Source of the DNA: Gracilaria domingensis
Lineage: Eukaryota > Rhodophyta > Florideophyceae > Gracilariales > Gracilariaceae
Length of the DNA stretch: 55,064 bases
Assembly: GCA_022539475.1 (NCBI GenBank)
Contig: VCMS01000505.1
Coordinates: 1 to 55,064 of the forward strand
Direction: 5' to 3'
Position 1 is the first letter of the stretch. Every line of letters starts with the position of its first letter. A program made the translations under genes and the position numbers. The notes below the pieces were generated by a model, which ran no database searches, was not told the DNA's origin, and saw nothing but the letters and a program-made list of their open reading frames with translations. Shown piece after piece: positions 576 through 30,366 of this stretch.

Positions 576-577
576 CA

Positions 578-6759: not shown

Positions 6760-7078
6760 AATATCCTTTCACCGGAGCTAGACTCCGTAGATGCCACGGA
6801 ACATGCGCTAGTCGACATCGCTCTGCTGTTAAGACCACAGGAGGGTCTGTTTTCGATGGGCGCCATGTAACTCTCGCAAGAACTCGCGAAAGCGGAATAG
6901 ACGGTGGCGATGAAACTCGCTGGAGGAGTTTTCGAAAGAGTAGTAGACGGCGGTGATGAACCGTTATTCTAAATTCGTATTTGAGCGGGTGTTAGTCGTA
7001 CACAGGAGGGTGTGAACAGGGTTCCGAGAGCGGGTGTAGTACGCAGACTTGTGTAGAATTACCTAGTAGTGACCCCCC

Positions 7079-7148: not shown

Positions 7149-7191
7149 CAGGAGGGTACGTCTGTCTCTTGCAGATGCTAGTTTTTGGCGA

Positions 7192-7291
7192 GGGTCGTCC
7201 AGAAATTGGCAAGGGTCGTCCAGTAAATTTTTTGAAAAAATATCGAGATCAATTATTTCAAAATCTGCAGATAATTGCTTGGGTCGTCCAG
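7192..7291. repeat. Three direct copies of an 11-mer
   Basis: GGGTCGTCCAG occurs at 7,192-7,202, 7,213-7,223 and 7,281-7,291. Such short subterminal repeats are typical of transposase-binding sites in CACTA-like elements. That role is inference only. Confidence 0.5.
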
Positions 7292-7656
7292 AATCGCTGT
7301 GCAGTAAATACTGGTGGGTTTTCCACTCGTGCTAGTTCTTTAGTCGAGGGCTACCTGAACTGTATTTCGCGAAGTCTAGGTTCAGTTTCCATTAAGGTGC
7401 ACATTACACGGTACCTTCTGCGGAATGATACCCTGCAACGCATGGAATACTAGTGCTAGTACAGATGATGCCCATTATGAAATCATACCGTTTTATTCGT
7501 ATCTATTCTTCTATCGACCGCTTTTGCTAACCACTACTTCGCTATATTACATGTACCATTTCCCCATGATGGATCGGGTGTAGGCGCAATCTGCGGCAGA
7601 TGCCGCAGAGGGCACCTGCACCAAATTGCGGTAACGGTAGACCACATACGCACTCC

Positions 7657-7733
7657 GAGAGGATGAGGCGCGAAGCGCCTCATCCTCTCCGTTCGTCATG
7701 TAGGGAACCATGCCCAGATGCATGGTTCCCTAC
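7657..7733. repeat. Pair of perfect hairpins
   Basis: The first hairpin is 7,657-7,689 with a perfect 15-bp stem and a GAA loop. The second is 7,700-7,733 with a perfect 14-bp stem and a 6-nt loop. They are 10 bp apart and unrelated in sequence. Confidence 0.8.
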
Positions 7734-7787
7734 TTGAGGAACCTGCATCTGCAACTCGTGAGCTACGTACGCATCAAAAGTCATTTA

Positions 7788-7926
7788 CCTGTATACGCAA
7801 GCGGAAAGTATCCATAAGTTAGTCAATGATCCGTTGGATACATTTGAAATGCGATGGAACGTACCATTGATAAAGCAAAACAGAAACGTTGCGCCAGAAA
7901 AGTCGAGGGACCTAGTAACTCGCAAA
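7788..7926. repeat. Direct repeat, unit 1 (about 140 bp)
   Basis: This segment is nearly identical to 8,162-8,301, with roughly nine differences over 140 bp. Both begin with CCTGTATA and end with ACTCGCAAA. Confidence 0.85.
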
Positions 7927-8161
7927 CGGAAGAAGAAGCAGGAAAGGGATCGGTTAGATTACCAGCCCACCATCATCGTAAAGCGCGAAAAGGTGTCGAA
8001 GCGAGAACTCACAACCAAGGACACCAAGAATGCCCAAGCAGCAAACATACCGCAAGATGCGATAAACGAGAGAGCAGCCTATGTCCCAACCAAGTACCAG
8101 AATCGCCTATCCCGAACAGCCAGAGATCGATCTTGAGAGACGAAATGAAATTGGTCGTTTT

Positions 8162-8301
8162 CCTGTATAAGCAAGCAGAAAGTATCCATAAGTTAGTCAA
8201 TGCTCCGTTGGATACAGTTGAAATGCGATAGAACGTACCATTGATAAGAGCAAAACAGAAACGTTGCGCTAGAAAAGTCGAGGGACCTAGTAACTCGCAA
8301 A
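8162..8301. repeat. Direct repeat, unit 2 (about 140 bp)
   Basis: Second copy of the repeat at 7,788-7,926. The 235 bp between the units is unique in this window. The pair could be solo remnants of a small repeat or flanks of a lost insertion. Confidence 0.85.
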
Positions 8302-8549
8302 AGTAACCCAAAGCCTTTTTCCTGCCGTTTACATGTCGCAGAGCGCGAAGAGACGTGGTGAGGATTGGTTAGTTTAGAACAAAGATACGTAGAAGGAAAT
8401 GGAAGCACGTACGAAAAGACTGCACGGAAAGACTGCAGGGAATACATCCGTGAGATACGGATGCTGTCCGCTTTATGGAGGCGTCCGACGAGGGCGGAGA
8501 AAGAGAATAAGGTACGCTTCATGTCCGCTTAATGGAATCCATTCTCAGC

Positions 8550-8638
8550 ACGCTACTTCGTAATCCGTCGTACTTTTTTCCGCCCTCGCACTTCGTAGCG
8601 AGTGCGAGGGCGGAAAAACGTACGACGGAGCGGAGTAG
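8550..8638. repeat. Long imperfect hairpin upstream of transposase
   Basis: The core arms 8,565-8,592 and 8,601-8,628 pair almost perfectly with an 8-nt loop. Weaker pairing extends outward to CTACT/AGTAG. It lies about 360 bp before the transposase ATG and could mark the element's left region. Confidence 0.75.
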
Positions 8639-8994
8639 AACGCGAGGATGGCACGGATCACGACGGTAACAAAAAGATCGGACGTCGGACGGGCGGGGGC
8701 GGCGGCGGAGGGAAGAGATTTATTTTTCTGTGCGAGATTGGACAAGTGTACAGCGTACAACGTTGGGAAACCAGAGTTTTATAACCAGTGGTAGATAATA
8801 CGAGACGTACACCCTTGTGTTGAGGTCGACGTGTACCTACGTTCCTTTTTGAACGAAAGCACGTGATTTAAACTCAAAATATATTCTCCGTTCTGAGCAA
8901 CACGTCGATATTGACTGTCGCTCGACCTCCTTCTCCCTTCGGACGCCCTTCCCTTGCAGTCTTTGTCGTCGTTTCTCGTTCATTTCTTCTTCCC

Positions 8995-11900
8995 ATGGTC
9001 TACTACTGTACACATAAGAAGCGTGGGTGCCCCTTCGTTACTCGCCGAGGAGTCTTATCTCTTCAACAGCATGTCAACCATTGCCCGTTTCGTCTGAAAG
9101 CAGCGCTGGAAGACGACAATAGCCGGGCCATTCGGAGAAGCAAGCGTCTCAAGCTTTCCGCGCCCGCGCCCGCATCTTCCGAAACGGTCACTGCCCCTTG
9201 TCGCCTTCCCGAGCCTCCAGTGTCCGAGGACATCGTCGACCCCACTCCGTGCGCCCCTCCCATTCCGGACACTTCGCATTGTGTTTCTCCTTCCCCGGGT
9301 CCCGCGTCATTAGAGCGAGAACACGGAAGCAGTTCCGGCCCAGTGCCTTCTAAGGAGGCCCTTGGTGATTTGCATATGGATTATCTCACGGTTTGTCTGG
9401 CTTCAGTAGCTTCCAACCTTGGTCATCGTGAGGCGGACAAGCTCATTGGGCTACTTCGGGACCCGCGATTCTCGCAAAAGCGATTCAACGAGACCATAAC
9501 AAGTTCCAAGCGCTGTACAGAACTGAAGAACGCCATTTTCGAACGATACGCCTCAAAGGACGGTTTCAATCGCAGAACTGTCTCGCCAGAAGGATGTAAG
9601 TTCAGCGCCACCCTCTACACGAGAGACCCCGTTCAGACACTTGTGAAACAGCTCCAGTTGGCTAACAACGAAAACACATTCTTCCACCCTATACCTCAGA
9701 CCCACTCCACGAAAATATCTCACCCCATGTCCGGCTCTCTCGCAAGAGACGCCGCCTCAAAACTTAAGGAAATGGTCATGGGCTCTTTGGATAGTAGAAT
9801 AGTGTGGTACTCCCAAGAAATAAGTTACAGTGAATCTTTCGTAGGTCTTCTGCAGGTATACACCGATAAGTCTTCAACAACTCTAAAGCAAACATCGGTT
9901 ACCGCCTATCCTCTTCACCTCATATTTCTCAACTTCTCCGACGAGCTTCGCCGTAAGTGTATCCGTGATGACCTCACAGTAGTGGCATACTTCCCTACCA
10001 CACTGATCGAGGTTTCCGCATCTGAAGCAGACGCAATGCCATTTGTTTCTAGCAAGTCTCTACGCGAGTCCAGGATGCAAATCCTTCAAGAATCTCTTCG
10101 TCAAGTCCTGGAGCCCATTCTAAATCTCACGCAGAAAGGTTTTCAGTTCATCGGGGAAGACAAACTAAGTCGAGTGTGCCATCCTCTGCTTGCAAGTTAT
10201 TGTGCGGATATTCCTGAGGCTAAGGACATTCTGTCCATTCTTCATGGGACCAAAACGGAAAGCCCGTGTCATAGATGCAAAGCCCCTCGCTCATCTTTAT
10301 GCAGTCCTATTCCCACCTCATTCAACGGACGTTCTCAAAAGCACACGAAAAGCATCCGAAAGACATACACAGCTATCTTGCAACATGCACAAAAAGACGA
10401 GGCGGAAAGACGTCCACGTCGTGCGAGGGAGAGGAGATCTCAAGAGGATACTCTGATGCGTTCAAATTCCATATCTCTCATTCCTTCGTTCCTCGAAACT
10501 TCCGTAAGCCTTGGAATGATCCCGGGATTGTCTCCATACAGTCTGTTCTCATTCGAACCATTACAAAACTTGCATCTCGGCATCTCAAAGTTGATAAAAA
10601 CGGCCACAATCGAGAGACTGCAGTCAGACACTCTGTGCACCACAATAGGAACATCTGCATCGCGTTCATTTCGAACGATACGCACTCAACTCCTCAACCA
10701 TGCAAACGCAATTCTAGCTGCCATAGAACGCGATTCTCGTGCCAAAGGTTTACATATCGATTTCTCCACGCAGGAGAAAGGCAAATCTTTGAATGGTATC
10801 TTCACGAAAGACGGTCTCCATGGAATGCTGGAGGCCAAAAACTACAAAGCACTTGACATGGTCTTTCCCTTCATAGGAGCATTCTTTGACATATGCTGTG
10901 GAGAACAGGACGTTGCCCCAATCACAACCGTTTTCTCTCAGTACTCGGACTTGCTTTCGACCTTATTCAGATACAATCGTGACCCGTATTGGACTGAAAG
11001 CTGTCTCCTGTGTCTTAGTTCGGAGATTGAAGCCTTCAAGCGTTCCGCAACAAAGACTCTGGCGGATTTTCATCCCTCCAGACTGGGAACTCTGAAGTTT
11101 CATCTTCTCGATCATCTCGTGGACGATATTCGCCGTCTGGGAAGTATCAAGTACTACGACGCAGGCATATACGAACATGCACACCTGCTATTTAAGAGAC
11201 ACTACAAAAAGACGTCCAGAAGAACAGCAACGGCTGTGGAGGAGACTATTCGCTCCATTGAGCACGGACATGTTAGAAAGCAATGGAATGGCAATACTCC
11301 TTACCAGCGTAATCCAGGTTTACCAGGAACTTCCACACAGCTTCCTCGGTTTGCAATGAGAGGGCGTTCTTTCACTTTACGAGCTCTTCAACATTGTGTT
11401 TCAAGTATGTCCAGTTCAAAAACATGGACTGCTGTTAGAGAAATGTTCTCAAGTACGGACACAAGGTCGATTCTTGATCAGATTGGTGAACAGGCCCTTC
11501 CTCCTTTCCTCAGTCTCGTGAAAGAAACACTGGATGAGCACTCTATTACATACTTCCCAGAAAAGACAAGGATAACTCTGGTGAATTCGGCCCTCGTGAA
11601 AGGCGGTTTCGTTCCGACTCTTAAACACTTCGATTCGTCTTCTAAGGCACTTAAGCTGGGACGACCCAAATACCCCATCATCCAACGTGTCTTCGCTTCT
11701 CCAGCATTTGGTCCCAGTAGAAAGCCAAAGTTTTCCACTGTATTGGTAAGCGGAGAAGATTCAGAGACTTGGGTTGCCCAGGTAGTCGCTCTGATTCGAA
11801 TATCTCTCCTTGATTCTGCACTTACCGCACCAGAGGTGGCATTCGTCCGGTATTTCGAGGTTTTACCCCCCGCAACAAACATCGACCACATATTGAAATG

Positions 11901-12174
11901 CATATCTTTACGGTGGGCTACAAACGATGAAAAGAACCACACTCTTCCGTTCCCTCGTCATTCCAAAGCGGAGACTATCGTAGAGTTAACTCCTTGGTAC
12001 GGGATGGTTCCGGCTTCTGCACTACAGGGAACTGTCCATGTTGTTCGATCAAACTACCCTGCTCCACCTTTTTGTCCTCCACTTCAATGGTTCCAACACC
12101 GATTCTACATCAATCGATTCTATCATGATTCAGATGAAGGACCAACTGAGCACGTTGATCTTGTACAGCCTTAA
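8995..12174 (+). CDS. Plavaka/CACTA-like transposase with N-terminal zinc finger
   Basis: The ATG at 8,995 gives 1,059 aa. The open frame extends upstream only through non-ATG codons, and the zinc finger sits directly after this Met. Residues 5-30 form a C-x6-C-x13-H-x2-H-C finger. A block at about 285-345 (TDKSSTT, then YPLHLIFLNFSDELRRK and VAYFP) matches the DKT...P-(V/L)-(Y/H)-L...N-(I/F)...RRK pattern of Plavaka-type transposases. A CxxC at 425/428 sits in an SPCHRCKAP context, FEPLQNLHLG is at about 520-529, and YEHAHLLFKRHYKKTSRR is at about 726-743, like the family's ER-H...K...SN/SR region. Candidate catalytic residues are D291, E521 and E727; the middle position is usually Asp, so the D-to-E change is odd. 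It would catalyse cut-and-paste transposition in the nucleus. The reading frame is fully open. Confidence 0.75.
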   Translation: MVYYCTHKKRGCPFVTRRGVLSLQQHVNHCPFRLKAALEDDNSRAIRRSKRLKLSAPAPASSETVTAPCRLPEPPVSEDIVDPTPCAPPIPDTSHCVSPSPGPASLEREHGSSSGPVPSKEALGDLHMDYLTVCLASVASNLGHREADKLIGLLRDPRFSQKRFNETITSSKRCTELKNAIFERYASKDGFNRRTVSPEGCKFSATLYTRDPVQTLVKQLQLANNENTFFHPIPQTHSTKISHPMSGSLARDAASKLKEMVMGSLDSRIVWYSQEISYSESFVGLLQVYTDKSSTTLKQTSVTAYPLHLIFLNFSDELRRKCIRDDLTVVAYFPTTLIEVSASEADAMPFVSSKSLRESRMQILQESLRQVLEPILNLTQKGFQFIGEDKLSRVCHPLLASYCADIPEAKDILSILHGTKTESPCHRCKAPRSSLCSPIPTSFNGRSQKHTKSIRKTYTAILQHAQKDEAERRPRRARERRSQEDTLMRSNSISLIPSFLETSVSLGMIPGLSPYSLFSFEPLQNLHLGISKLIKTATIERLQSDTLCTTIGTSASRSFRTIRTQLLNHANAILAAIERDSRAKGLHIDFSTQEKGKSLNGIFTKDGLHGMLEAKNYKALDMVFPFIGAFFDICCGEQDVAPITTVFSQYSDLLSTLFRYNRDPYWTESCLLCLSSEIEAFKRSATKTLADFHPSRLGTLKFHLLDHLVDDIRRLGSIKYYDAGIYEHAHLLFKRHYKKTSRRTATAVEETIRSIEHGHVRKQWNGNTPYQRNPGLPGTSTQLPRFAMRGRSFTLRALQHCVSSMSSSKTWTAVREMFSSTDTRSILDQIGEQALPPFLSLVKETLDEHSITYFPEKTRITLVNSALVKGGFVPTLKHFDSSSKALKLGRPKYPIIQRVFASPAFGPSRKPKFSTVLVSGEDSETWVAQVVALIRISLLDSALTAPEVAFVRYFEVLPPATNIDHILKCISLRWATNDEKNHTLPFPRHSKAETIVELTPWYGMVPASALQGTVHVVRSNYPAPPFCPPLQWFQHRFYINRFYHDSDEGPTEHVDLVQP

Positions 12175-14566
12175 ACATTAAGGGCTCCATCTTCTACATG
12201 TTCACCTTGTGGTGCCTTTTCTTGTGATCCTGTGTTAATTCCGAAATCGTTCATGTCCATTTCCTTGAACTCCATATCCCCTTCCTCGCATTCACCAACG
12301 AAGCAATCGCTAATAGACCCCAATGTTCGGCTCACACTGTCAATAAAAAATTGTTCTTTCACAGTGAGGTAAAGTCTTCCGTTCGACGGCATTCGATATC
12401 CAAATGTAGCCTCTCTCATGTCATTACCAAGAACCTTAGTCCAATCTTCCGTTGTCGTTCCAAAATTATGAAACTCGCTGGAATTGGTCCTCAAGACATG
12501 TTGCCTAACATCCCCCAGAACATTCTTTAAACACAGAGGTAGCAGTTCAGCAAACTTCTTTGTAAACAGTTTCTGTCTCTGGCCACCCCTTGACACATCC
12601 GTACTTAGAAGGCTCACAACCGTCAACACCCAAGCGTCCAAACGTGCGAGCAACAGTATTGTGCCATCTAAAAAGGTGCCCGTATCCTTGTCTTCCACAT
12701 CATACCCAATAAACTCCTTCAGCACTTGTACCCCGACAAGGTTTCGGAAGAACAAGTCTTGATCTTCCGTCGGCATATCCTCGACATTGTCCGCATTGGA
12801 GTACTTTAGACGAACAAATGGGGCTTTTCTCCACCATGAAGTGTTCGGTACACCATTTTCGTCAAGACGCAGTATGTTCTCCTGCGCTTCCTTCAACTGC
12901 ATTGTGAGTTCGTCAGCATTCTCTTCTACCAGCTTTGTTCTTCTCCAAATCAGATCGTACCCCAGGAGCAGAAATAGTTTATCCCTCGTATTTCTCTTAC
13001 GAACGCCCACGACGTCACTCATGGTCTGCCGCATTCTCTGCCTAAGGCACATATCTGCACAAAGTTCCAGTATACACCTGTCGGTAAGAGATGCTTTTCT
13101 AATACCTTCCCAGCTCAACTCCTTCAACTCGCTTTCAACCATTTTCTTCAGCAAAGCATCTGGCCCCCCCTCTACCGACGGTGTGAACATGCCAAAACTG
13201 CCCAAGAGCTCCACGGGGTTTTTAGGAACCATGTATGAACCACCTTCCTCCGGCTCAATAAGCCCTTCCCCACTCTCAGTTGCGTCTTCCACCTTCTCGG
13301 CACGGTTACCCCAATTTGGGTGAGCGACTCACCTTCGAGCCATAGCTCACTTGTTTCTCTCCTTGCCCACGTCAGCATGTTGTGATACACTGCTCGAGCA
13401 ACCCCTCGAAACTCGTCGCACACCTCAATTTTATGCTTCTTTCTACCTGTCTGCCCAGGTTCACCAGCACGTGTACTCCTATCTCCCTCCTGTTTCAGTG
13501 CCCCTCTTAGCCCTTCAATGACTAGATCCTTCTCTTCAAGCTTCTTTTTCAAAGCCGTACTCTGCTCTTGGGCGACCTTCACTAGAATTCCCCGAACCAT
13601 CAAGTCCTCTTGTAGCGTCTTAACCTTTTCTTTCAAGCAATTCAGTTCATTTAAAAGATCAGGTCTGTTCATAGAGCTTAAATTCACACCAGTTTGGATA
13701 TCTTCCGTTATTTCCCTAGCTTCTTCGGCGACAGGCCCCGGTAATGCCGCAGGATTCGGTGTTATTTCGTTATCGGAACTATCCTCATGTGCCATAGCCT
13801 TAGACACGAGAGGCTGCAGGCATTCTGTGTCCACCCTTGGCACGGCTCCGAGCTCCAACTCCCGTGTCTGTCCTCCTCCATGGCATGGTATATCAGATGA
13901 ATTGGGCCTCGTACGAGCTGCAACGGCCCCCGTTCTGGAAAGAGGGGAAGGTCGAAAAGTAACTCGTCTATCAGTTGTCTCTCGTTTTCTTATTGTCTTT
14001 CTCCCTTGTCCGGACCCATAGCGAGGCATGATACGGTTCATAGCGGCCCCAGTTCTAGAAGACAGGGATGGACGTGACGATCTTAATATACTAGGGCTCT
14101 CACGACTTCTCGTCATTTTCCCTTGTTGTCCAGATCCACTGGGCGGCGTAACCCGCGCCCCAGTAGCTCCGGTCTTCGATATCGGCCGGGGACATGAAGG
14201 TTTTAGTGTCATACGAACCTCTTCGGTTCCAGTTGTCATGCCCTACTGTCCTGACCCGCTGGGCCGAGTTACCTCATCTTCTTGAGGAGCAGAGACAGAT
14301 GCACGATTTGCATTATCGGCAGTTGACGGCACGACCTCGTTCGCTGATCCACGAATTCTTGACGCAATCCCGAAAGACGCTCCGCTGCGAGATGGGCGAG
14401 AGAGTCCTGTAGAAGGACGCTCACTGACTCTCTCCTTCGTCGAGGACGACTTCCGTTTAGGAAGTGCGGTGGTTGTAGCCTGATTCGTATCATCCGATGC
14501 TCTTCTCTTCTTCTGTCCACTCTCGTTCCGCTGCGTACTATTTCGCTTTCTCGGCGTTATACCCAT
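12171..14566 (-). pseudogene. Gene B: repeat-bearing basic/coiled-coil protein, unknown function (one stop, one frameshift)
   Basis: The ATG at 14,566 starts a basic, Ser/Arg-rich, probably nuclear protein (KRNS, KKRR, KRKS clusters). In-frame TAG at 14,243-14,245 interrupts it exactly where sister repeats have a Gln codon. The same frame resumes through GSGQ-containing 40-residue repeats, an acidic segment and a coiled coil (about 13,640-13,490), to a frameshift near 13,310. The last frame (13,292-12,171) holds the conserved C-terminal region with CLRQRMRQTMSD, LFRNLVG, EFIGYDV and ARLDAW. The same layout in copy 1 shows it is a regular gene of the element. Its TAA overlaps the transposase TAA in a shared TTAA. 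It could be a DNA-binding partner of the transposase; no known domain was identified. Without the two lesions it would be about 800 aa. Confidence 0.65.
13890..14260 (-). repeat. 120-bp (40-codon) tandem repeats inside gene B
   Basis: A TGTCC-GA-CC core (complement encodes GSGQ) recurs at 14,007, 14,127 and 14,247, exactly 120 bp apart. Weaker similarity covers the rest of each unit (TGA--R-P before GSGQ, basic residues after it). The period is a multiple of three, so the repeat is selected or tolerated as protein sequence. Confidence 0.75.
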
Positions 14567-14816
14567 GTTGTGGAGATAAACAGGGTAAGGAAACGAAATT
14601 GTTGGGGAGGGGGGGAGGGGGTGGGGGGGGGGGTGCATGGTTCAGATATTCCGGGAGACTCCGCAGTTCCTGCTTTTTAGGAATTTGAGGTGCCCAATGG
14701 GTCGCAAATATCGCCGTTACAGATGAAGAGCTCCAGTGTACATGTACAACAACGCGTATTGCAGGCAGCTGCAACACACACAAGCATATTTACTTTCTAT
14801 TTGGTACTGAACTCAT
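14567..14816. promoter_or_regulatory. Gene C-gene B spacer with G-rich tract (candidate G-quadruplex)
   Basis: This 250-bp spacer between the minus-strand genes C and B includes a plus-strand G-tract at 14,603-14,634, with at least four runs of four or more G. It lies 37-68 bp upstream of the gene B ATG, on the strand opposite to its coding strand. A regulatory role in gene B expression is inferred. Homopolymer length here may be inaccurate. Confidence 0.5.
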
Positions 14817-17800
14817 CTATTGCTCCAATGTCAGAGCCCAGTCCCAGGCGTACTGCTCTCCGTAGTTGAAATACAACTCTTCGCCCCTCTCAATATCTCT
14901 TACTGCTCTACAACGAAGTAGAGCATAGTTAGAAAGGTCTGACTTGAACTGTATCACGGACTTCGCTTCCACCACCTGCACATTGGCACTTCGAGTCCTG
15001 TTTGACCGGGGCTCCGATAAATCGGGATCCCCGGCATGATATCCGGCGTCGTTAATGTAGCCCCCGATACAAAAAGGCGCCGGGACAATGTAGACTTCGC
15101 TCTCCTTTCTATCCTGAGCCTGTCCTGGTCTGTTCCTCAGGTGCAGAAACTCCGTACCAGTCACAGTGACCATCATAGAAAACAACTTGTACCGCACTGG
15201 AGTTGCTCCGAGACAGCCACTTCCATACGTTAAGTGTCTTTCCTTCCGGTTCGTCAGATCCGTGTATACCAAAGTTCCATAGAAATGACAGATAGTTTCC
15301 CCAGCCAATATCTTATGTTCCGTGAACACCCCCATACCAGCACGGGGATGTCGAATCTTAGAAGATGCTATATGTAAGCGATAGCGATTGGCTTCAACAG
15401 TCAACAGCATATGCATATCCATAAGATTCAGAGCTCCTCGGTACTTCCCCTCCCAAAGATCTACAGTACGCTGTCCACACTTCTCGACAAAGTCCCAGTC
15501 CTTCCAGTATCTTCCTAGGAACTGAGTAATATGTCCAGGCATCACTTGGTACTGGGGGTAACCAAATGGAGCCTCCCATTCAAGCCGACCTCGGTCCCGA
15601 TGTGGAACCCGTTCATAGGTCGTTGAAGCCGCATCCACCACCTCCTGTTCAGCCAGGATGTCATTCTTCCCCCCGCGAATAACTTCGGCCATAAGAGTCG
15701 TTAGATGGTGCTTCGCATGGCTGAAACATGGCCTATTCTTCTCGCACCCCAAGAACTTTCTATGCTTTGTCAGCGATAGGCACGGCATACCCGTAGAAAA
15801 AGTTCCCGCGAACATGTCCATGACAAGATCACCCGGTCTTGTGAAGCGACATATCAACTCCTTCATCAACTCCCTCGACTTCTGCTCCGGTCTTATGTAC
15901 TGCCCACCTGGTACTGAACTACCTGGCTCATGTACCTTCCATGTCAACCACTCCCCCGCTCTCGGTTTGGGCACCCGGTCAATTACATTCCTGTTAGCCG
16001 GGAAAGTAGAAGGAATGAAATTGTTCTCCTCAAATGGAGTAAGACTGGCTTCCTCCGATGGTCGCAATCCACGCTTCACCCCATAACGGCGTACTTCGTT
16101 ACGGGCTGTATCCCAAACTTCCGTGGATTCCCTCCAACATTACTGCGATCCCGGATGAACACCAGTGGATTCGCATCCACTTTAAACGAAGGCATGAGTT
16201 CTGGTTTACCTTCGCTTCCAGCTTCATCTTTCGTACTCGCCGTTTCCGAAAGTATCCTGTGCCACACATGAAACTGTGCCATGGCACAGAATATAATGAA
16301 GTGCCCACCTGACCGAAGCGCGGAACTCATTAAGTCAGCCGTACGGATCATGTCTTCCTCACTGAAGACATCGTGACCACTATTCCGTTTGTTCCTCTTC
16401 CTTCGAGTGTTAAAGGGAGGGTCTGTTAGGACAAGCTGTGCCTCACCCCATAAAATCTCACTCTGATTCACAAACGTTTCGTGTGTGTGCCTCAGGTCCG
16501 TCATGTCACAGTTGTACGCTACAAAGTGTGACTTTCTCATCCCCTTCCACACCTTGTCCATATTCATTCGAAGGAGACTGGATATCCCCTTCATGGGCGG
16601 CTCAATACCAGTCTTTTGGATGTTGTAACCGGCAACCCGAGATTCATGCTCCGCAAGATTCACCGGCTTCTCGAACTCGTCGCTATCGGAGCTCACGAGG
16701 TTCATATACTCTCGACGAGGTGGGGGTGGGGCAGACTTGGTCGAAGAAGGTTCGGCATTACCGGAAGTTTTAGGGGTTTTCGTCAGTTCAATATCAGGTT
16801 TCGCGTGAATGCCGACATGGAACCCTGCTGCATGACGCATATCCTGTATCGGTTTCCATAGCAACTCCGAAAACTTCTGAAATCGAGCAGGCAACTCACC
16901 GGAGTCAGAGCTAGATACGGTATCCATCCGTATCTCCGAAAACTCTATCCAGTTCCTCATCTGATCAACCCATAAGCTATAGAGGCTATCGTGGGTGCAT
17001 ATGGTTTCGAGGTCTGTCAAAAACTCCTTAGCCAGTATTCGCAGGTTTGTATCGCATTCATCACTCAAGGTCTCCACCGATCCACTAGTACTGCTCTGTG
17101 GCACATCCTTTGTGTTGAATCGAGTACTCTGGCTCGGCGGGGCATAACCAGACTCCCGTGTCTCTAGCGCTGTATACTTCAACGTCTGCATATTCATGTA
17201 AATGTATGGTTTCACCATGTGCTGAACGTTCGTGTATCCAAGATGAGCCGCAAAACAACTCCATGCCCATACGACCTCACTGATAGCGAATCCCAGTCGA
17301 TCACAGTTGTCTTTGGAGAACGACGTAAAAGTGGGTATGTACACAGATGGTGCATGGTTCACTTTTCGTTTCTTTTTCGGTTGTTTCTTCTTCATCATTC
17401 GGATTTTGTCGTTCTCTCCCATTATGTGGCCGAGGTATGATAAGTATATAACGACCTCAAATGGGTTCACAGCTGTTGGTGGGATGAACACTGTCGTCTT
17501 CAGAACCTGCTTTCTCCTGGTCATGAAATAACCAACCAGGCATCGCACCGGTAGGTATATACCCATATCCATAGAGAGAAGGAAAAAATCGCGGAGTCTC
17601 TGGTCCTCATCCCCGTCCTTCTTGTCAAGAAGCTTCGTTACAAGATATCGTTGTTCCACAGGTTTGTTATTCACAACACTCTTTCGCAGCTGTTGCAGTG
17701 TCAAGTTCTGCAGGTTCTTGGAGTTAGTGGCCTCCTCAAACATCTTCCTTGCCTCCGGAATATCCTTATAGTTCTCGGCGCAGAACTCTATTAACCCTCT

Positions 17801-17953
17801 AAACCCCACGTCCCGTGGCCGATCAGGGCCTCCATCGCTGTTTGCCAAAGCATCGCGAAGAACCAAGAAAAGTCTGACATATGCATGGAACGCCGGAGGC
17901 GGAGCACTCATGTCGATAGGATGTATCTCCTCTCCAACATCGGTGGAATCCAT
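14817..17953 (-). CDS. Gene C: beta-class DNA amino-methyltransferase fused to a SET domain (one G-run frameshift)
   Basis: The ATG at 17,953 begins an uncharacterised N-terminal region of about 330 residues, mostly helical in appearance, followed by a Pro/Ser linker with an MNLVSSDSDEFE run. The catalytic motif IV is TDPPF (D at residue 511), then FIIFCAMAQF. After a frameshift at about 16,079 (four G where five would keep the frame) come IRPEQKSRELMKELI and motif I DMFAGTFSTG (about 15,815), with GCEKNRPCF. Motif IV before motif I is the beta-class order (N6-adenine or N4-cytosine methylation). The SET domain spans about 15,360-14,845: GMGVF, FYGTLVY, FCIGGYINDAGY, SANVQVVE and ERGEELYFNYGEQY. 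SET domains transfer methyl groups to protein lysines, mostly on histones. The protein would be about 1,045 aa and probably nuclear. The SET asparagine motif is N-D rather than N-H-S. Gene D is divergent across a shared inverted-repeat promoter. Confidence 0.8.
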
Positions 17954-17965
17954 CGCTTCAGCGCA

Positions 17966-18066
17966 AACAACGGAGGCGAGCCTTTAAATGGCGACTTACG
18001 CTGGGCACCCCCGCTTTCGGCAGCTCCTCCCAGCGCACTGCCAGTCTCGTCCGTGTCCGTGTCCGC
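17966..18066. repeat. Outer inverted repeat, left arm
   Basis: About 100 bp, nearly identical in reverse complement to 19,213-19,316, including TTTAAA and the GCTTTCGGCAGCTCCTCCCA segment. It ends 13 bp before the gene C ATG. Confidence 0.9.
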
Positions 18067-18067
18067 T

Positions 18068-18110
18068 CGGAGCGATAGCGTCGCGTGTCGGAGCGATAGC
18101 GTCGCGTGTC
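18068..18110. repeat. Tandem 21-mer duplication
   Basis: CGGAGCGATAGCGTCGCGTGT is directly repeated just inside the left outer arm. A weaker third partial copy follows (CGGAGCTATTGC). Confidence 0.8.
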
Positions 18111-18240
18111 GGCCACGTCGCGATTCGGAGCTATTGCAACGGTCCCGTATTGTGCTAAAAGTCGCGGATCAAGTGGGTGTGAAGCGCTAGTTTTCTCTAG
18201 TTTGATATATGTGTACGGCGTGTGCAGCGAAATCACTGCC

Positions 18241-18560
18241 GGAAGTGCCGGGAGGAGTGTTTTGGGAGGTCTCCGGAAGGCGCCGGAATGTGACCAGAAC
18301 GTGCCCGCGGGCGGGGGGTCCGGTCGTGTTAGGGTAGGTACCCTAACACGACCGGACCCCCCCGCCCGCGGGCATAAAATCGCACATTTTTCAAAAAATC
18401 GTCCAAAATGTGCCCGCGGGCGGGGGGTCCAGTCGTGTTAGGGTACCTACCCTAACACGACCGGACCCCCCCGCCCGCGGGCACGTTTTGGACGATTTTT
18501 TGCACCCTCCGGAGACCTCCCAAAACACTCCTCCCGGCACTTCTGTACCCACTGCGTCAC
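18241..18560. repeat. Inner inverted block I (two GC-rich hairpins)
   Basis: The block contains hairpins at about 18,302-18,374 and 18,410-18,483. Each has stems beginning TGCCCGCGGGCGGGG and a centre with GTTAGGGTA facing TACCCTAAC. They flank an AT-rich spacer with a TTTTTCAAAAAA run. The block starts with GAAGTGCCGGGAGGAGTG and is closed by its reverse complement at 18,510-18,545. It is the mirror image of 18,680-18,990. Confidence 0.9.
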
Positions 18561-18665
18561 CTCAGTGAACCATCCCGGAAATTAGGGAGTGTCTGGAGGG
18601 TGGAGAAGACGGGATGGTCACCTCAGTGCACCATCCCGGAAATTAGGGAGTGTCTGGAGGGTTAA
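18558..18665. repeat. Central tandem repeat (about 60-bp period)
   Basis: Two copies of a segment containing CACCTCAGTG and CATCCCGGAAATTAGGGAGT lie between the two inverted blocks, at the axis of symmetry. Confidence 0.8.
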
Positions 18666-18679
18666 GATGACGGGATGGT

Positions 18680-18995
18680 GCACTAAGGTGACGCAGTGGG
18701 TACAGGAAGTGCCGGGAGGAGTGTTTTGGGAGGTCTCCGGAGGGTGCCAGAATGTGGCCAGAACGTGCCCGCGGGCGGGGGGGGTCGGTCGTGTTAGGGT
18801 AGGTACCCTAACACGACCGACCCCCCCCGCCCGCGGGCACGTTTTGGGCGATTTTTTGAAAAATGTGCGATTTTATGCCCGCGGGCGGGGGGGTCCGGTC
18901 GTGTTAGGGTACCTACCCTAACACGACCGACCCCCCCCGCCCGCGGGCATAAAATCGCAACATTCCGGTGCCTTCCCGGGACCTCCCAAAACACG
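18680..18995. repeat. Inner inverted block II (two GC-rich hairpins)
   Basis: The block contains hairpins at about 18,766-18,839 and 18,876-18,949, matching those of block I but with GGTCGG/CCGACC variants in the stem. The order of spacer and flanking segments is reversed relative to block I. The outermost right segment (CCTTCCCGGGACCTCCCAAAA) is diverged. Confidence 0.9.
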
Positions 18996-19212
18996 CCGCC
19001 GCGCAGTGATTTCGCTACACCCGGCCGCCGGTACGTTGGCGCCGCTGTCCACGTGTATTGGCGGGAGTAGGCTGTACATGGAAGTGAATGAGTGTACTCT
19101 TGACTACTATGCAAAGCATTTGAAGAGCATGATTAGAGAACGCGACCATTGCTCGCGTGAGTCATCATTGCGCGAACTCCACGACTCTAAAGCGTACAAT
19201 CAGCGTGCGAGC

Positions 19213-19316
19213 GGCCACGGACAGGACACGGACGAGACTGGCAGTGCGCTGGGAGGAGCTGCCGAAAGCGGGGGTGCCCAGCGTAAGTCGCCTTTTAAAG
19301 GCTCGCCTCCGTTGTT
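19213..19316. repeat. Outer inverted repeat, right arm
   Basis: Reverse complement of 17,966-18,066. The TTTTAAA element lies about 77-83 bp upstream of the gene D ATG. Confidence 0.9.
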
Positions 19317-19375
19317 GTATCGTCCAGAGCGAGCGTATTGTTGATATACACCTTTCACTGCAATAGCTGTTCAAC

Positions 19376-21400
19376 ATGAAGCCAACTCGTGTTCGAAAGC
19401 GTACGCAAAGCGTGACTCCTCGCACTCGGCGGAGCACTCGATTATTGCAAGGTGGAATGCGGGTTTCTCTGCAGATGGATATTGAGGATGAAGGAAAGGT
19501 GATAGTCGGGGAAGCGTTGTTGCATGGAATTGGAAGTGTTCTACGCCGCGAGTTGCACGGGAAGCAATTGGACCCAGGTCTTGTGGTGGTTCATAATATT
19601 CTCATCAGTCGAAGCGGTCAGACGTTCTACCCTTACCGGGCGGAGGGCCTGGATCTTCCACAATATATCCAGGATCTCCGGACGGCCGCTCCTTGGGATG
19701 AGAAAATGATGGAACCGGTGGCAGCCAGCATTCCGGCGTCGAAGCGAGGAACGGTGAGCGCTATGAGTGAGGTGATGACGCCGACAAGCCGCACGGAGCC
19801 AATTCGAAGTTCATCAACACCGAGAGGTAGCGCATCAGTAGCACCTCCGCGGGCAGGTCCGTCGTCTGTTACGAAGCGGTCTATGGAGACGAGAGCATCC
19901 CCAGCTACGAAGCGGACAGGTCAAACAAAGTCTACCTCCGCTACGAAGCCCACTGCGTCGAAAAGGGCTTCTCCTGCGATGAATCAGACCGTCGACACAA
20001 GGGGATCTTCTGCGTCGAAACAGACGGTTCAGCAGGGGACGGCTGTGCAAGAGGAGGAAGATGAGATCATGAAAGGTCCCCTTCCAGACGCGGATGCGCA
20101 ATCCGCGCAAGGAGCTGGTCCATCTGTACCCCAAACTGCACCAGAAACTGCGGAGCAGCAGGACGATGACGTTGTGCTTCTGTCCGCAAGAATGGCACGT
20201 TCAAGTGTTTCTGGCGAGCGGTCTGGAACACAAGGGACACCTACTCGGAGCAAGACGTACAGACGAATTCGTCAGAAGGTACCAAAGGTGAACCTCAATC
20301 AGTACCGGATGGTTGTTGTTACTGTTGACATCACTCTGGTGGACACTCCGCCCAATTTACTCCGTGGAGTAAGTAAACGCCACGTTGAAGCCCTTGTGAA
20401 GAGTATGGAGGAGCGGGGGATATTGCAGTCGATGGGTTCTCCAGTGGTGGCCTTACAAGATGCTACTACGGGAGAGAGGGATACTGACAAGGGACGCCTA
20501 ACGAAGAAGTGCTTCATTGTAGATGGTTTGCATCGTCTGAAAGCTATACAATATTTGGCAGCGACTGGTGCACCGAAGTGGAAGCGATTAGCCAAGTTTT
20601 GGCGTTGCAATCTGCTGATACGAAGAGATGGGAGGCCCATTGGGATGAAGGAATTGTTATGTGTTGCTTCGTACCTCAATGAGTCGACGAGTACCATGCG
20701 AAGGATGATGTTTGCAGACAAGATACACTCTATAGTTAGTGTGGTCGCCATTCTAATTGAAGATGTTGAGGGGGTGACGCCGGCAGACGTGGATCCTGCA
20801 GAAGTGACAGAAGTGTTGAAGGAGAGCCAACTGATTGGGACTGTGCAAGAGCGTCAGTACCTGAGATATGCCAATGTCGCCCTGCAACTCATGTCTCGTG
20901 AGGGAATGCTGGCCCATTTCGAGGATATATGTGAGACTGTGAGTGACATAGGTCTCACACATCTGTCCCATACTCCGCTATATGTTTTGGATGCCGAGGA
21001 GTTTTCCTTCATTCTTGATTGTCTTCAGATGTTTCTATTGAAGGGCAAGTCGACGAAGACAAAGCAATGGAAAAGCTTTGAGGAGGTTCGAGGTTTCTTT
21101 TATGATAGAGCAGTGTCTCTGTTCCGCGCGGCTAGAGCAGTGAGGAATGAACTGAACGAGGAAGAGTCCATGGAAGTGTTCCTGAAACGCGAAGTCAGTC
21201 TTTCTGCTCCATCGAATGAAGATGACGTTGAAGACCCAGACAACAACGCAGCTGTGTATCAGTTCCTTTTGGGACAAGTTGTGAACTTCAACACTTTGCC
21301 GCGTGTTCGGAGCAGGACGAACTCAATTAGAACTGCCACGACTTCCGTTCAGAATCGATTGCGGACGATGCTCAAGGTAATTCCGCCCCCGCACCAGTGA
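19376..21400 (+). CDS. Gene D: ParB/sulfiredoxin-fold domain protein
   Basis: The ATG at 19,376 opens a 674-aa frame. The first 110 residues are basic and unassigned. A long low-complexity Ser/Thr/Ala/Lys region follows (about 125-290), with loosely repeated SATK/SPAT units and an acidic SUMO-interaction-like run, DDDVVLLS (263-270). From about 305 a ParB/Srx-like domain begins. KRHVEALVKSMEERG corresponds to the helix after the first strand, and VDGLHRLKA (D383-G-L-H-R387) is the hallmark DGxHR motif of the fold, as in ParB and related nucleotide-binding proteins. The remaining 270 residues are helical and unassigned. ParB-family domains bind DNA or hydrolyse nucleotides; the activity here is unknown. 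The frame ends at a TGA in 21,398-21,400, but coding-like sequence continues in another frame 3' of it, so the true C-terminus may be longer. Confidence 0.65.
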   Translation: MKPTRVRKRTQSVTPRTRRSTRLLQGGMRVSLQMDIEDEGKVIVGEALLHGIGSVLRRELHGKQLDPGLVVVHNILISRSGQTFYPYRAEGLDLPQYIQDLRTAAPWDEKMMEPVAASIPASKRGTVSAMSEVMTPTSRTEPIRSSSTPRGSASVAPPRAGPSSVTKRSMETRASPATKRTGQTKSTSATKPTASKRASPAMNQTVDTRGSSASKQTVQQGTAVQEEEDEIMKGPLPDADAQSAQGAGPSVPQTAPETAEQQDDDVVLLSARMARSSVSGERSGTQGTPTRSKTYRRIRQKVPKVNLNQYRMVVVTVDITLVDTPPNLLRGVSKRHVEALVKSMEERGILQSMGSPVVALQDATTGERDTDKGRLTKKCFIVDGLHRLKAIQYLAATGAPKWKRLAKFWRCNLLIRRDGRPIGMKELLCVASYLNESTSTMRRMMFADKIHSIVSVVAILIEDVEGVTPADVDPAEVTEVLKESQLIGTVQERQYLRYANVALQLMSREGMLAHFEDICETVSDIGLTHLSHTPLYVLDAEEFSFILDCLQMFLLKGKSTKTKQWKSFEEVRGFFYDRAVSLFRAARAVRNELNEEESMEVFLKREVSLSAPSNEDDVEDPDNNAAVYQFLLGQVVNFNTLPRVRSRTNSIRTATTSVQNRLRTMLKVIPPPHQ

Positions 21401-23438
21401 AGCAGTCCGTGACAAAGAGGAGGACTCCCGCTGCTGCTGCTGCAACATCTGCCAGTGAAGAAGGGGAGCCGCGAAGAAGTGCACGAGAACGGGCGCAGGT
21501 GAGTTATAGGGAAATGACACGGCCGAAATCGAGGTGCCATAGAAGTTCTGGATAGCTCTGAAGAAGAACAGCGGGCTCCGCCGAGGAAGAAACGGAGAAA
21601 GACTTTCACACAACAGATGAGATCTACTCTGAACAGCATGACACCGGATGACCTGATGTCTCAACTAAATGAACATGTGCTGAGAGGAAGGTCGATGAAG
21701 GTTCAGTTCGTGGCATTGGGAGAGGGAGCGAATGCAGAGAACGCAGGCAGTTCTGCATTTGTGGATGACGAAGAGCTTCTTTCTGTGACAGTTCCACGGG
21801 TTGTCACCGTCGAGAAAGATGCTGCGCCAGACGATCAGCAAGAGACAGGTGGGGGGTCATTTGATGACGAGTTACCTACAGCTCTTCCGGAATCTGAGGA
21901 GCACGGACTTGTTCGAGGTGACCCATATGATGGCCCACCGAACCCATCATGGTGCGGGTATGCCAGGCTGAGACCGCAGNTGAGGAGCACGGACCTTGTT
22001 GAGGTGACCTATGATGGCCCACTGAACGCCATCCATGGTGCGGGTATGCGCAGGCTGAGACCGCAGGAAATGGCAAGGGAAGAACGTAATTGACAACAGG
22101 ACGCCGTGGCTCAGAGTCATTCCACTTGCAGAAGGGACATAGGGTCGGAGCTGCTAAGTGTCTCGAATTCTTAGAGATGTACACCAATCTTGTCCTTTTT
22201 GGCCGCTGCAAGGCTTGAACATCCGCCTACGGCCGGGAGACCCATTTTGGTAATGCAAGTATCCTGCGTACTCGACGACAGGTATGGATGATGAAGAGGT
22301 GCTGTGGGTTCTGGCGAAGGAGCATGACAAATTTGGGGCAAATGTTCTTCGCCCGAATGCAAGCTGAGCTAAGGCAGAATGGATATTGCGTGTTGATGGC
22401 TTTGGCGACAGGATAATGGTTGGTCCCTAAATGGGGAGGAGTTGAAGAAGTTCGGGAGTTTCGGAGCTGTGTCGGGGAAGTTGGTGGACTGTCTTCGAGA
22501 ATGGTATGGAGCGATGCCGGATATACGGAAAGGAGAAGGACAGAAGTCGTTTTGTTCAAATAAAATCAACGAGATAAGGATGGAAGGACGGGTAGCGATT
22601 GGACGCATTTTGAGGGGAGAGTGATGTCGACACGGTTGGGTACGGTGGAGAAGCCGGAGGATAATGAGGAGCTCAGGTGGGTTGTAAGGTCGCGTGCTTT
22701 ACTTGATGTTCGAATGGGTAGCAATTGCTGCACGGCTTTGGACTATGGGACAATGAGAAGGGAAGCTGTGAAGATGTACACTCCGAAAACTGGTGGTCGA
22801 TTTCTGGGACGACGAGTAAAGTGCAAGGCGCCAGACGTGCACCGAACTTCCAGTGGTCTGGTTAGCGAGGAAACCATGATACTGGCAACCGGATACTTTG
22901 TAATGGCCCTTGGGAAAGAGGGCTTTCCTCTCTGGGTGAGCGCATGGAAGCCATCAACTGGTGGGGATGAACAACCAAACAGTTGCGAGTGATGGTCGGG
23001 GTGTATCCAGCGAAGAAGATAATCATCCCACCGTACTTCTGTATTCGTGGCCGTGGTGATGTGACACATTCTGGAGCAAGTGGGTTGAAGGACAAGCGTG
23101 CATAGGCCCCGATCTATGGATTTTGACTAGAGGTTAGAATACATTACATAGATACCAGAGGGCATACGACACTACTGATGCTGTCTCTCCGGGTGGGATT
23201 ATACTCCGACCCACGTTTGTCCAAACGGTGACGAACGGAGGAGGATGGCGGATGAGATGAACGTGTTGTCCGATAGGAGGTTGGGGCGGTTGACATGGAC
23301 GTAAGACCAAGTTGGTCGTGGGAGATTGGTGTGAAGAAGCGACGCCGCCTAGACCCCGAAGTGCGTGCCGAGAGTAGTAGTGATGACGATTTAGCAATAA
23401 TGAGGCTGCCGACGCATAGAAAGAAGGATGAGATATAA
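21401..23438 (+). pseudogene. Gene E: broken reading frames downstream of ParB-like gene
   Basis: Coding-like segments follow gene D in changing frames. One at 21,406-21,498 (Ala-rich, then EEGEPRRSARERAQ) ends at a GTGAGT donor-like site. Another at about 21,572-22,093 starts RAPPRKKRRK, a nuclear-localisation-like cluster. Others lie at 22,240-22,360 (MDDEEVLWVLAKEHDKFG), 22,442-22,624, 22,621-22,992, 22,992-23,102, about 23,150-23,260, and 23,280-23,438 (KKRRRLDPE, SSSDDD, stop TAA). An intron of 73 nt (21,499-21,571) would join the first two in phase. The others need frameshift repair or further introns. It may be the C-terminal extension of gene D or a separate gene. No known domain was recognised. 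Confidence 0.45.
21895..22066 (+). repeat. Tandem duplication of about 85 bp flanking one ambiguous base
   Basis: Unit 1 is 21,895-21,979 and unit 2 is 21,981-22,066, both starting TGAGGAGCACGGAC and ending GAGACCGCAG. They are separated by a single N at 21,980. The lone N at the exact junction suggests an assembly join. Confidence 0.85.
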
Positions 23439-26400
23439 GAAGTGACATTAGTAAATTAGTGTGTCTTGCGAGTATCTATGTGTAGTGAGGCGGGCTTATA
23501 TAACGGCTATACAATGTCACATAGAAAAGGTCGGCAAGGCTGGTATTGAACAAATGTCATACGTCTTTTGGTCCAGTTTGCGGTCTAATTGCAACATGCC
23601 AAATGCTCGGTATCGTTAACATCATTGGTGGCACCATTCAATTTCGCAAAATTGAAATGGTAGCGTCCTAACACTTCTGAAACTGCTCTTAAGGTTGCAT
23701 TTTAAGAGAAGTATAAGTGCAGTTCCTGTCTATGCGGTACTTGTGAGTGAGCTGACTGCAATATCAGGAAAATGGCAGAGGAAACAAAGAGAGACTTGCG
23801 AAATTTACACCAAAATACCATTGTCTAAAGTTCAGTATATGCCAATGGTTACGGTATTAGTTCCGTTGATGGAAGTTTGACGAAGAGAGAGAGAGTCCAA
23901 TCCCCGAAAGAAGTTGTGGAAGTGTATGGTTCATTGACGACGTGTTGGTTTCCGGCAACTTAGTCAAGAGGGGTAGATAGTGAGAGCGACGATGGAGGGG
24001 AAAATGAAAGAGACTGTGGAGACTAATGTATTAGTAGTCAGACGATACATGGAGCTCTTCATGCTTCTACTGACGAGAGGGAAATTAAGGGATTGATATC
24101 ATGATACAACACATTGAAACCACACTGTTAGAAAGGACTACTCGTCCACTATGACAGGACATACTGACAAATGGTAAGAGCACCACCATGGATATATCGT
24201 AGATGATGATTGACCAAAGAGAATTCGTCGAGAGACCGCAGATACTAGCTCAGCGCTCTTCCATTTAGTGTAACAAAATGTACGCGCCGTGAGACAAAGA
24301 AAGAGTGGATTCTGCTTATTGGGCACACTGATTGCAGGAATAGGACTAAAGCGTTTGTTATCTATCCCGAGCGAGAAAGTTGCGTTTAATTGTGGACAAA
24401 GCGATACAGACAAAAGAAGCGGAAGGAGAAAATCTTGTGGATAATGAACACGAGATTTATTGATACGGAATAGACGTACGATGACGTTCGGTAGTGCTTT
24501 GAGCGACGGGCTTTGCATGAGGTAGGCGTGTACGGCGTTCACGTCAAAGAAGATTGTATCCCGGGTCGGAGTACACAACCTGTTCGAAAAGCCGTCGGAG
24601 AGGTCTACTTCGCATTATAGTGGTGCTTGTTGTACGGCTACGAGGAAAACAGCACGATAAAAACACGATGATTCATAAAAGGGATATTGAGATATAACGA
24701 CACTTTATTACGGATCTCATATCATAGCTAAGTATTAAAGGCATGTAGACACTTGAAACAAATTCCAAGAGCATTTCTAACCTTTACACTTGCATTTTCT
24801 GTACCGTAAGTTTGCCACACTTATGTGGTCTCAATGCAGACGTCTCCACCGCATCAAACAAGATATGTTACCGCTTGACTGGATGGTCTTTCTCCTCACA
24901 TGAACTGCCAGGGTTGGCCTTCTATAGAGGGCCACAATCTGAAGCATTCCGAAAGCAACGATTAAATGTGATGTCGAACTGGGGGTCGGTTTTCACAAAG
25001 GCTAGGCCCCACTATTTTTGTTGAAACGCATGTTCCTATGTCACAGTTTTCATCTTGAGGGTACGCAACCAGGTTGAAAGGATTCAACACTTTTGAAATA
25101 CGCGGCAGTTAAAACTTCTGTTTCCAATTCGAGACGTCCATTGTAACGTGAGCTTGTAAGGGGAGATCTCACCATGTCTTTTCTAGTGCTCACCACTGCT
25201 TGTCTAGCACCGACCTACTTCCCGTGAAGTCCGTGCGATTCATTCTAAGGAGAGTGCAAGTTCTCAGTTCGGCTGCACACTTTTCGTAACCTCTCCTGTC
25301 AAGGTCCTGATGCAATTTCGGTACATTTAGGAGTATAGGGTTCCCCGTAGCGCTATCGACGTTCACGAGATGCAAAAGGTGTAGGTCCACTTTCAGGTGC
25401 TCCATGAAATTCTCGGCATCTCTAATAGTCTCGCCAGTAGCAATTCGACACCACGCGTGCGTTGATGTACTTCATTGCATTTACTGTTTCGGCAGGAAAT
25501 GTTGCTCCCAGGCTCTTTTCAGAGTACACCACCGACAACTCACACATCACGGTCGCGTAGCAATTTTCGAAATATTTACGTTAGCCAGCTTGCCTGAGGA
25601 GTTACTTTCTTGGGCTCTAATTCCGAGTTATACATGTTTTGAAGCTTTCGAAAGGGTTCGTTTTGAAATGGGTGTGGGTCATACGAATGCGAAGGATGGT
25701 GATTGATGTTCACGTAAAGGTGTTTTCGTAGTATAAAAAGAGATCTAAGAACGACCATATACGGGTATTGTAGTACTGTTTTAAAACAGTTAACTAGGAG
25801 GACGAGTTTTTGCATCAGATTATGGAAAGTAAAGAAGGATGATTTTAGTCATAATTTATGTAGGGTTCAGTGAGCGGTAAAGAAAACTGTAAATATCTTT
25901 AAACATGAGCTTAAAATCAGAAGATTAAAAGCAATCTACATATATGGGTATGAAACCACATAAAAGGTTTTACTTACTATCTATGGGTGCCCCAAGTATG
26001 AAAAGGCTAAATAACAGATATCTTTCAGAATTCGCCAATTTTTGTACTTGTTTCGGTTACTAGTATCGTGCACTTTAATGAATAATGAATGCACCATTTC
26101 TATCTAGCAAAGGTCTTAGGGAGTATTAGTGATAAGGGAATGTAGGATTTAAGGGGCCGTATATACTGAACCACAGAAGGCGAACAATATAAAGTTGGTA
26201 AATAAGGAACAGGGTTCATTTCGATAGAAGTAAACTTTTATGTTTAAACTATCTCTAAACGGTTTACAACACGAAAAGTCATTGTGTTTCGTAACCTCAA
26301 AGCTGGGGGGAATGGGGAGGGGGATAACTTTCCTTAACAACGTTGACGTAGTTTTGTAATGAAAACGGAGGGGGTCACGCGCTACAATGGTTTCTCTTGC

Positions 26401-29989: not shown

Positions 29990-30366
29990 TCCACTTTGCA
30001 GAACACAGACGTACGAGTCTCTGAGCCCGGAAGAAACAGGCACGTGTGTCATCTGCCCTCATATGAGGATGCAAAAGCCAAGTACGGACGGCAACAGCCG
30101 TCTCAACCAGCAGAGGCCCACACCCCAACACGGGTTAAACGATTCAACACTGGCGAACGGGGTTGCTTTGGAGTCCCGAGGGGGGAATGAACCGCAAACC
30201 GGCGGTCGAGCCTGCTCCGAAAAACTAGATACGGAGTCTCCCCTACGGGAGGGGCGTCTTTTGAGTCGAAGCAGAGGACGTCTGAGGCGTCACCGCTTCG
30301 CTCCCTGGCAATTCGAATCCTATCAGGAGAGTTGCTGATACAGATGCTGACTCGAAACTCCTCGGA

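Follow-up and report, generated by a model that had tools for sequence, protein, structure and literature searches.

The stretch of DNA analysed here (the window) is a contig of 55,064 nucleotides from the red alga Gracilaria domingensis (VCMS01000505.1, assembly GCA_022539475.1). We propose that it holds at 7159..30011 a giant cut-and-paste DNA transposon that has a Plavaka-like DDE transposase (gene A), target duplications of 2 base pairs (bp) and a module of three genes, B, C and D, with gene C coding for a DNA methyltransferase fused to a SET domain, and that the element thereby controls its own silencing. Taken as a whole, this reading is probably right. That the transposon and its gene content are real is put forward with high confidence, while the control by the element of its own chromatin is proposed tentatively. 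The features that the argument needs first are the following.

7159..30011, + strand: the whole transposon, 22,853 bp, with ends common to other copies
7159..7174, + strand: left terminal inverted repeat CGTCTGTCTCTTGCAG, with a sharp border in 5/5 copies compared
7185..7294, + strand: subterminal repeats, three copies, with the core GGGTCGTCCAG
8995..12174, + strand: gene A, Plavaka-type transposase of 1059 amino acids (aa) (PF18759, E 1.7e-18)
12171..14566, − strand: gene B
14817..17953, − strand: gene C, beta-class N6/N4 DNA methyltransferase fused to SET (Pfam)
17966..18058, no strand: left arm of a 99% inverted repeat (pair I4), just upstream of the start of C
18241..19005, no strand: dense nested palindromes between C and D (repeat search; folding of 17940-18940)
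19224..19316, no strand: right arm of pair I4 (99%), about 60 nt before the start of D
19376..21400, + strand: gene D, its first 674 aa, with a ParB-like stretch, truncated in the window
29995..30011, + strand: right terminal inverted repeat TTTGCAGAACACAGACG, with an identical end in L037 and L038

Ends, target duplications and copies of the element

The ends were obtained by comparison of copies, a direct search for ends in the window (6700-9100 against 21000-37000) having given no convincing ones. The termini are CGTCTGT..ACAGACG and the consensus ends are CGTCTGTCTCTTGCA..TGCAGAACACAGACG; the right border at 30011 is supported by two further copies (L037, L038) in addition to the window, where the element is flanked by TA on both sides (7157-7158 on the left and 30012-30013 on the right). 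An earlier reading made from the letters of the window (the sequence-only reading) had described a compact block of genes at 8995..21400 and had suggested that copies be aligned in search of shared ends, terminal inverted repeats and target-site duplications, all of which the comparison has brought out (CGTCTGT..ACAGACG, 2 bp). The genes of the block are where that reading placed them, but the block is the left and middle part of the element 7159..30011, and the extent of 12.4 kb has to be given up, since the shared ends give 22.9 kb, with further genes in the right arm. The inverted repeat I4 was considered for the termini and is ruled out, being located between C and D.

In the genome searched, an assembly of 77.9 Mb in 680 contigs (written C2, C20 and so on, the window being C505), the end patterns with at most 2 mismatches have 568 matches on the left and 577 on the right, the control with the pattern read backwards giving 0 for each. 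Equal 2-bp flanks are present in 18/33 left-right end pairs, versus 96/1056 in the control, where the left flank of one element was compared with the right flank of another. These pairs are non-random, 17 of them coming from the first end loci and the remainder having been chosen for their C or D content, and the count omits C60, whose right end was not found, C49 and C108, whose right ends are beyond the stretches compared, and the alternative right end L072 of C2:571818, which would give equal flanks, with CA in place of the terminal CG. Note that the left ends of C2:571818, C57:63k and C315 have CA, CC or CT instead of the terminal CG, perhaps by mutation of the end dinucleotide.

Among the units tested, equal flanks occur in 8/18 that bear C or D (window included), in 10/15 without an exact C or D match, and in 12/16 of at most 15 kb. 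In units above 15 kb or of unmeasured size the fraction is just 6/17, which may arise from switching of the assembly between near-identical repeats, and flanks are unequal in C34, C23, C51, C38 and C50 (A plus C and/or D, with a span of about 19-24 kb) as well as in C69, C91, C41, C42:30417 and C315. This could be taken to mean that the long units are assembly chimeras and that the C/D-bearing elements are not single transposons, a view to which the window copy also lends itself. A single N at 21980 lies there within a tandem repeat of 86 bp and probably marks two overlapping contigs that were left unmerged; to its left the identity to other copies is mostly about 99%, whereas to its right it is mostly 83-94%, rising to about 97% over the final 374 bases. 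Moreover, C84 (L021) shows the same insertion, agreeing with the window in the left flank and over the first kilobase, yet its match to gene F, a right-arm gene described below, is only about 7.7 kb in; the two may differ by haplotype, duplication or assembly error. We therefore rest the conclusions on other copies, as the window copy may have been joined wrongly. Against chimeras in general, the ends of C20:34728 and C8:298339 enclose A, C, D and F and have equal flanks (CT and GT, respectively), and C42:69780, C26:355016 and C17 hold C or D, also with equal flanks, so that we regard this explanation as very improbable. A further assembly gap is present at 42371-43314.

Gene A matches the Pfam Plavaka family PF18759 with 67.4 bits against a cut-off of 26.3, which upholds the earlier assignment to a Plavaka/CACTA-like transposase. 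It also has the C(2)C and H(3-4)H motifs (CHRC at 425, HLLDH at 703, YEHAH at 726) before the last catalytic E, where the choice of this E is our own reading; such motifs in this place mark Plavaka transposases according to the part of PMC12730594 drawn on here. The target duplication of 2 bp falls within the 2-3 bp of Plavaka elements. The termini CGTCTGT..ACAGACG are different from those of fungal Plavaka A/B (TGT..ACA or CATCA..TGATG), and the element is therefore called Plavaka-like. The pattern for gene A has 543 matches genome-wide, and the 43 best-scored ones (the best candidates alone were scored) are 98-100% identical; a part of the transposon family has been amplified recently. Ten A copies were compared for the ratio of nonsynonymous to synonymous changes (dN/dS). 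Pairs that include L001 have values of 0.27-0.43, and pairs that include one of L002-L004, with L001 set aside, 0.08-0.21; L005-L010 have too few changes among themselves for a value. The transposase of gene A presumably mobilises the element.

As for the sizes and contents of the copies, 47 end pairs could be formed from the listed exact matches on contigs C2-C60, with sizes of 6.4-24.3 kb. Among the matches listed, they contain AF (16 pairs), A (14), none (4), ACDF (4), F (2) and seven other sets (one each); these contents rest on the first 100 places listed per pattern, exact matches first, and the absence of a gene in a unit is not proof. At the mean size of these 47 units (14.4 kb), 568 copies would together occupy about a tenth of the genome. 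Units of 13.8-14.9 kb (for example C9:49641, C16:25453 and C57:208628) have the transposase and no exact C, D or F match.

The methyltransferase-SET fusion and the optional module

In the window, gene C changes frame near 16079-16085 and is thereby split, with N6_N4_Mtase found at 7e-10 and SET at 6e-08 on the second frame. In copy L018 both domains are in a single frame (2.9e-15 and 1.6e-07), and C is one protein in intact copies; an intron is ruled out, as L018 continues through in one frame without added sequence. The earlier claim of a beta-class DNA amino-methyltransferase fused to SET thus holds, both Pfam cut-offs being passed: PF01555 gives 57.2 bits for L018, 53.7 for L023 and 51.6 for P0001, a metagenome protein, against a cut-off of 26.7, and PF00856 gives 32.2, 23.1 and 33.2, respectively, against 22.4. 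In C the motif DPPF/DPPY precedes the AdoMet motif, which we take to be the order of beta-class amino-methyltransferases. A profile of the C family matches among solved structures the adenine methylases DpnA (1.8e-12) and CcrM (1.4e-9) and, weakly, SETD8/KMT5A (best 2.9e-4). The catalytic motifs of SET domains include GxG, ELYxxYG and NHSC, of which, by eye, the SET part of C keeps GxG and ELYxxYG. Among the 98 C matches listed, which are 79-100% identical, nine have a frame of 1055 aa that is free of stops across the match, and many others have stops or shorter frames. The dN/dS of C (L018 versus the window) is 0.34, on few changes.

The patterns for B, C, D and F have 254, 223, 224 and 346 matches, versus the 543 for A, with 0 in the control for A, C, D, F and B; each count is for one 22-base pattern with at most 2 mismatches and is approximate. 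B, C and D are an optional module that is carried by a large minority of copies, the C count being about 40% of the A count. The spacing of the genes, taken from exact matches on contigs C2-C63, is regular: 24/34 C matches have A at 2.5-7.5 kb, mostly 5.70 kb, for 21/33 B matches C is no more than 4 kb away, mostly at 2.48 kb, and A-B is constant at 3.22 kb in most pairs. D is within 7 kb of 18/31 C matches, among the matches listed. In all of the C-bearing units among the end pairs (7/7), C is between the ends, so that an end between the transposase and C, which would have refuted the sequence-only reading, is not seen among them. That reading would also have been refuted by a transposase never accompanied by B, C or D, and this is not the case, given the 24/34 C matches near A. 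Of the exact A matches, 56/80 are without an exact C match within 7.5 kb; C therefore seems dispensable for movement.

A second, diverged element family is present at the left edge of the window, with the following features.

10..560, + strand: A', C-terminal remnant (43-48% versus A, best E 4e-18)
581..2055, − strand: B', broken (30-36% versus B)
3688..6768, − strand: C', methyltransferase (frame to 4159) plus SET part (28-35% versus C)

The SET part of C' is present beyond in-frame TAGs, one of which is at 4156-4158. The order A-B-C is thus kept at 1-6768, SET part included, and the association is therefore old, in agreement with what the sequence-only reading drew from the same order; the B-C-D module with the methyltransferase-SET fusion is old. 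The metagenome protein P0001 (ENA, 972 aa, both domains) was obtained by an alignment-based search and covers 94% of the query, a protein search with C' alone having given no match. Identity to L018 is 31-35% for P0001 and the C' proteins, with 33-35% for the second family, and the motifs of both domains are aligned. Phage matches reach a coverage of no more than 29% for C' and 7% for P0001, all within the methylase region. Between C and C', dN is 0.76 and dS is not computable. No D' was found upstream of C' within the 1.5 kb examined in L023-L025, where inverted repeats are also present upstream of C', suggesting a like plan. As to an empty site, the right flank of the window has no match to the C' copies compared.

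Two other explanations of the module have to be considered at this point. If B-C-D were a separate element inserted in a Plavaka element, its being optional and the counts of B, C and D being alike and unlike that of A would follow. This is, however, at odds with the order A-B-C common to the old copy at 1-6768 and with the A-B and A-C spacings that are constant in most pairs, and we consider such an insertion quite improbable. Alternatively, the module may be a passenger without present function, with the transposase and the ends alone mattering. This would agree with the excess of A over C matches (543 versus 223), with the equal flanks in 10/15 tested units without an exact C or D match, and with the near-neutral change of the C' copies described below. 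But the motifs of both domains have persisted in C, C' and P0001, which are 31-35% identical to L018, and nine of the 98 C matches listed retain the stop-free frame of 1055 aa, and we judge the passenger explanation unlikely.

Returning to the proposed self-controlling transposon, several observations weigh against it: the A matches without nearby C, the poor flank agreement of the long units, dN/dS values of 0.7-0.9 (near neutral) among the C' copies and of 0.86, on few changes, for D, and the readings of D as ParB and dioxygenase, which rest on weak matches and motifs. Furthermore, the SET part of C has, by eye, YINDA at the position where NHSC is usual, and any histone activity of C is therefore putative.

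Gene D, the right arm and the proposed control of chromatin

D is truncated in the window; intact frames of about 1,300 aa are present in several other copies, L088 giving 1208 residues of one. For its earlier description as a ParB/Srx-fold protein the evidence is weak: residues 309-352 match PHROG 3264 (ParB) at E 7e-4, while a Pfam scan of the window D gave no fitting match at E 1 and no ParB, and tblastn of D against phage gave no match. AlphaFold models of two D regions have pLDDT of 37 (ParB-like part) and 33 (C-terminus) and are of no use. At the C-terminus, by eye, LHTDF..GDVTHAG..VRYH is present, which we assume to resemble the 2-oxoglutarate/Fe dioxygenase motif HxD..H..R; P0003 has Arg for the first His. 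Here no fitting Pfam match was obtained up to E 10 and no solved-structure match of note, nor was TET/JBP matched in Pfam up to E 10 among 4 aligned members. The C-terminal part is 96% identical to P0002, a protein of the same alga, a match on which a fungal host was rejected. D is perhaps ParB-like, and a dioxygenase domain at its C-terminus is possible.

C and D are divergently oriented around the mirrored region between the arms of I4, and we propose that they may share a mirrored promoter. ParB proteins bind palindromic sites, and the palindromes between C and D are possible candidate binding sites for D.

On these features the proposed mechanism would be as follows. Judging from its motifs, C would most likely methylate the DNA of the element at adenine (cytosine N4 being the less likely target), and its SET part would set a linked lysine mark on the nearby chromatin, so that one protein might write both DNA and histone marks. 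D would bind the element, perhaps at the palindromes, and the element would thereby govern its own silencing state. A further-going form, which we regard as doubtful, is an epigenetic memory device: C would write both marks, the ParB-like D, possibly also an oxidative eraser, would nucleate on parS-like palindromes and spread, and the transposon would set and inherit its chromatin state. In the usual view, transposons receive DNA and histone marks, whereas here the transposon is possibly its own writer of both. The ends of the family are in hundreds of places in one genome, self-marking by a eukaryotic transposon becomes directly testable here, and such elements are a possible route for bacterial-type amino-methyltransferases into eukaryotic chromatin.

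The right arm of the element has the following further features.

21982..23313, + strand: remnant of the C-terminal region of D, broken and diverged (tblastn, 40%)
24712..25787, − strand: broken relative of gene E, a HAD-IIB phosphatase (tblastn, 37-44%)
26300..27597, − strand: broken relative of gene F (tblastn, 32-40%)
28548..29569, + strand: gene G, a coiled coil by eye (tblastn, 52-85%)

The window copies of E and F are broken and have diverged, that of G to a lesser degree. The right arms of C315, C69 and C108 have E, a second E-like gene (44-47% identity), F and G; E of the C315 copy matches Hydrolase_3 with 49.9 bits (cut-off 20.9) and NCBIfam HAD-IIB with 45.0 bits (cut-off 41.8). Two opposite-facing HAD phosphatase genes of about 45% identity are in the right arm of L032, L033 and L035. 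F gave no family or solved-structure match, G gave no family match, and a family scan of B in two pieces gave none. Some large viruses have methyltransferase, SET and HAD genes, and the element, being large and having all three, could on this ground be an integrated virus or virus-derived. Nevertheless, no capsid or polymerase match was found among the element proteins scanned, scanning IMG/VR turned up nothing related to A or to the C-terminus of D and, for C, a single fragment (37%), and the ends and the 2-bp flanks are of transposon type; a viral origin is extremely improbable.

In the window, gene B is interrupted by a TAG in frame (14243-14245) and changes frame near 13300. Since the four in-frame stops first noted in B, B' and C' are all TAG, a reassigned stop codon was considered; it is ruled out, as the retroelements and other A, C and D copies show TAA, TGA and TAG, and decay explains the stops. 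Beyond the element, window 34339-35920 is 85% similar to a stretch of another repeat in the right arm of the C49 copy (L031), and three related Ty3-type long terminal repeat retrotransposon copies are at 37485-54490 (− strand), at least one with a chromodomain, the second and third being identical in parts.

Comparison with known systems

The comparison draws on parts of the published descriptions. In the literature searched, with Repbase Reports and most subscription journals outside its scope, no methyltransferase-SET fusion in a transposon was recognised, and the earlier supposition that an element with this gene set is undescribed agrees with this, while transposons bearing SET, TET or methyltransferase genes are known. 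Fungal Plavaka elements carry TET/JBP genes (Kojima 2025, PMC12730594), and are like the present element in the Plavaka transposase, the short target duplication and a DNA-modifying passenger gene; in them the gene is an eraser and the ends are TGT..ACA or CATCA..TGATG, whereas here it is a writer, in a red alga, with CGTCTGT..ACAGACG. HarbingerS and MuDR of Phytophthora are DNA transposons with a SET gene, as here, but have other transposase families, and a methyltransferase fusion is not mentioned in the part of PMC12730594 that covers them. Mariner elements (PMC3627910) also encode a DNA methyltransferase, but with a Mariner transposase and other methyltransferase types, SET being unmentioned in the part compared.

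In the N4CMT of bdelloids (PMC8885841) a eukaryote likewise joins a bacterial N6_N4_MTase to a chromatin domain, namely a chromodomain, but the gene is described as belonging to the host and acting on transposons, not as transposon-borne. As for the mark itself, N6-methyladenine (6mA) is described to accompany permissive chromatin in many eukaryotes (PMC12695648). The Plavaka giant repeats of Amoebidium (PMC11244446) are up to 50 kb and have a Plavaka transposase and some genes matching red algae, but are described as tandem gene clusters with tyrosine recombinases, and no methyltransferase-SET is noted in the part compared. Red algae are a lineage little covered in the literature searched. 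The En/Spm families of Chondrus crispus (16-20 kb, 4-5 open reading frames; PMC6431247), compared by their brief description, are also red-algal, CACTA-type and very large, and are possibly close kin that could hold related genes. Thus the kind of element is known, while the methyltransferase-SET fusion and the gene set are, as far as we have seen, new within the literature searched.

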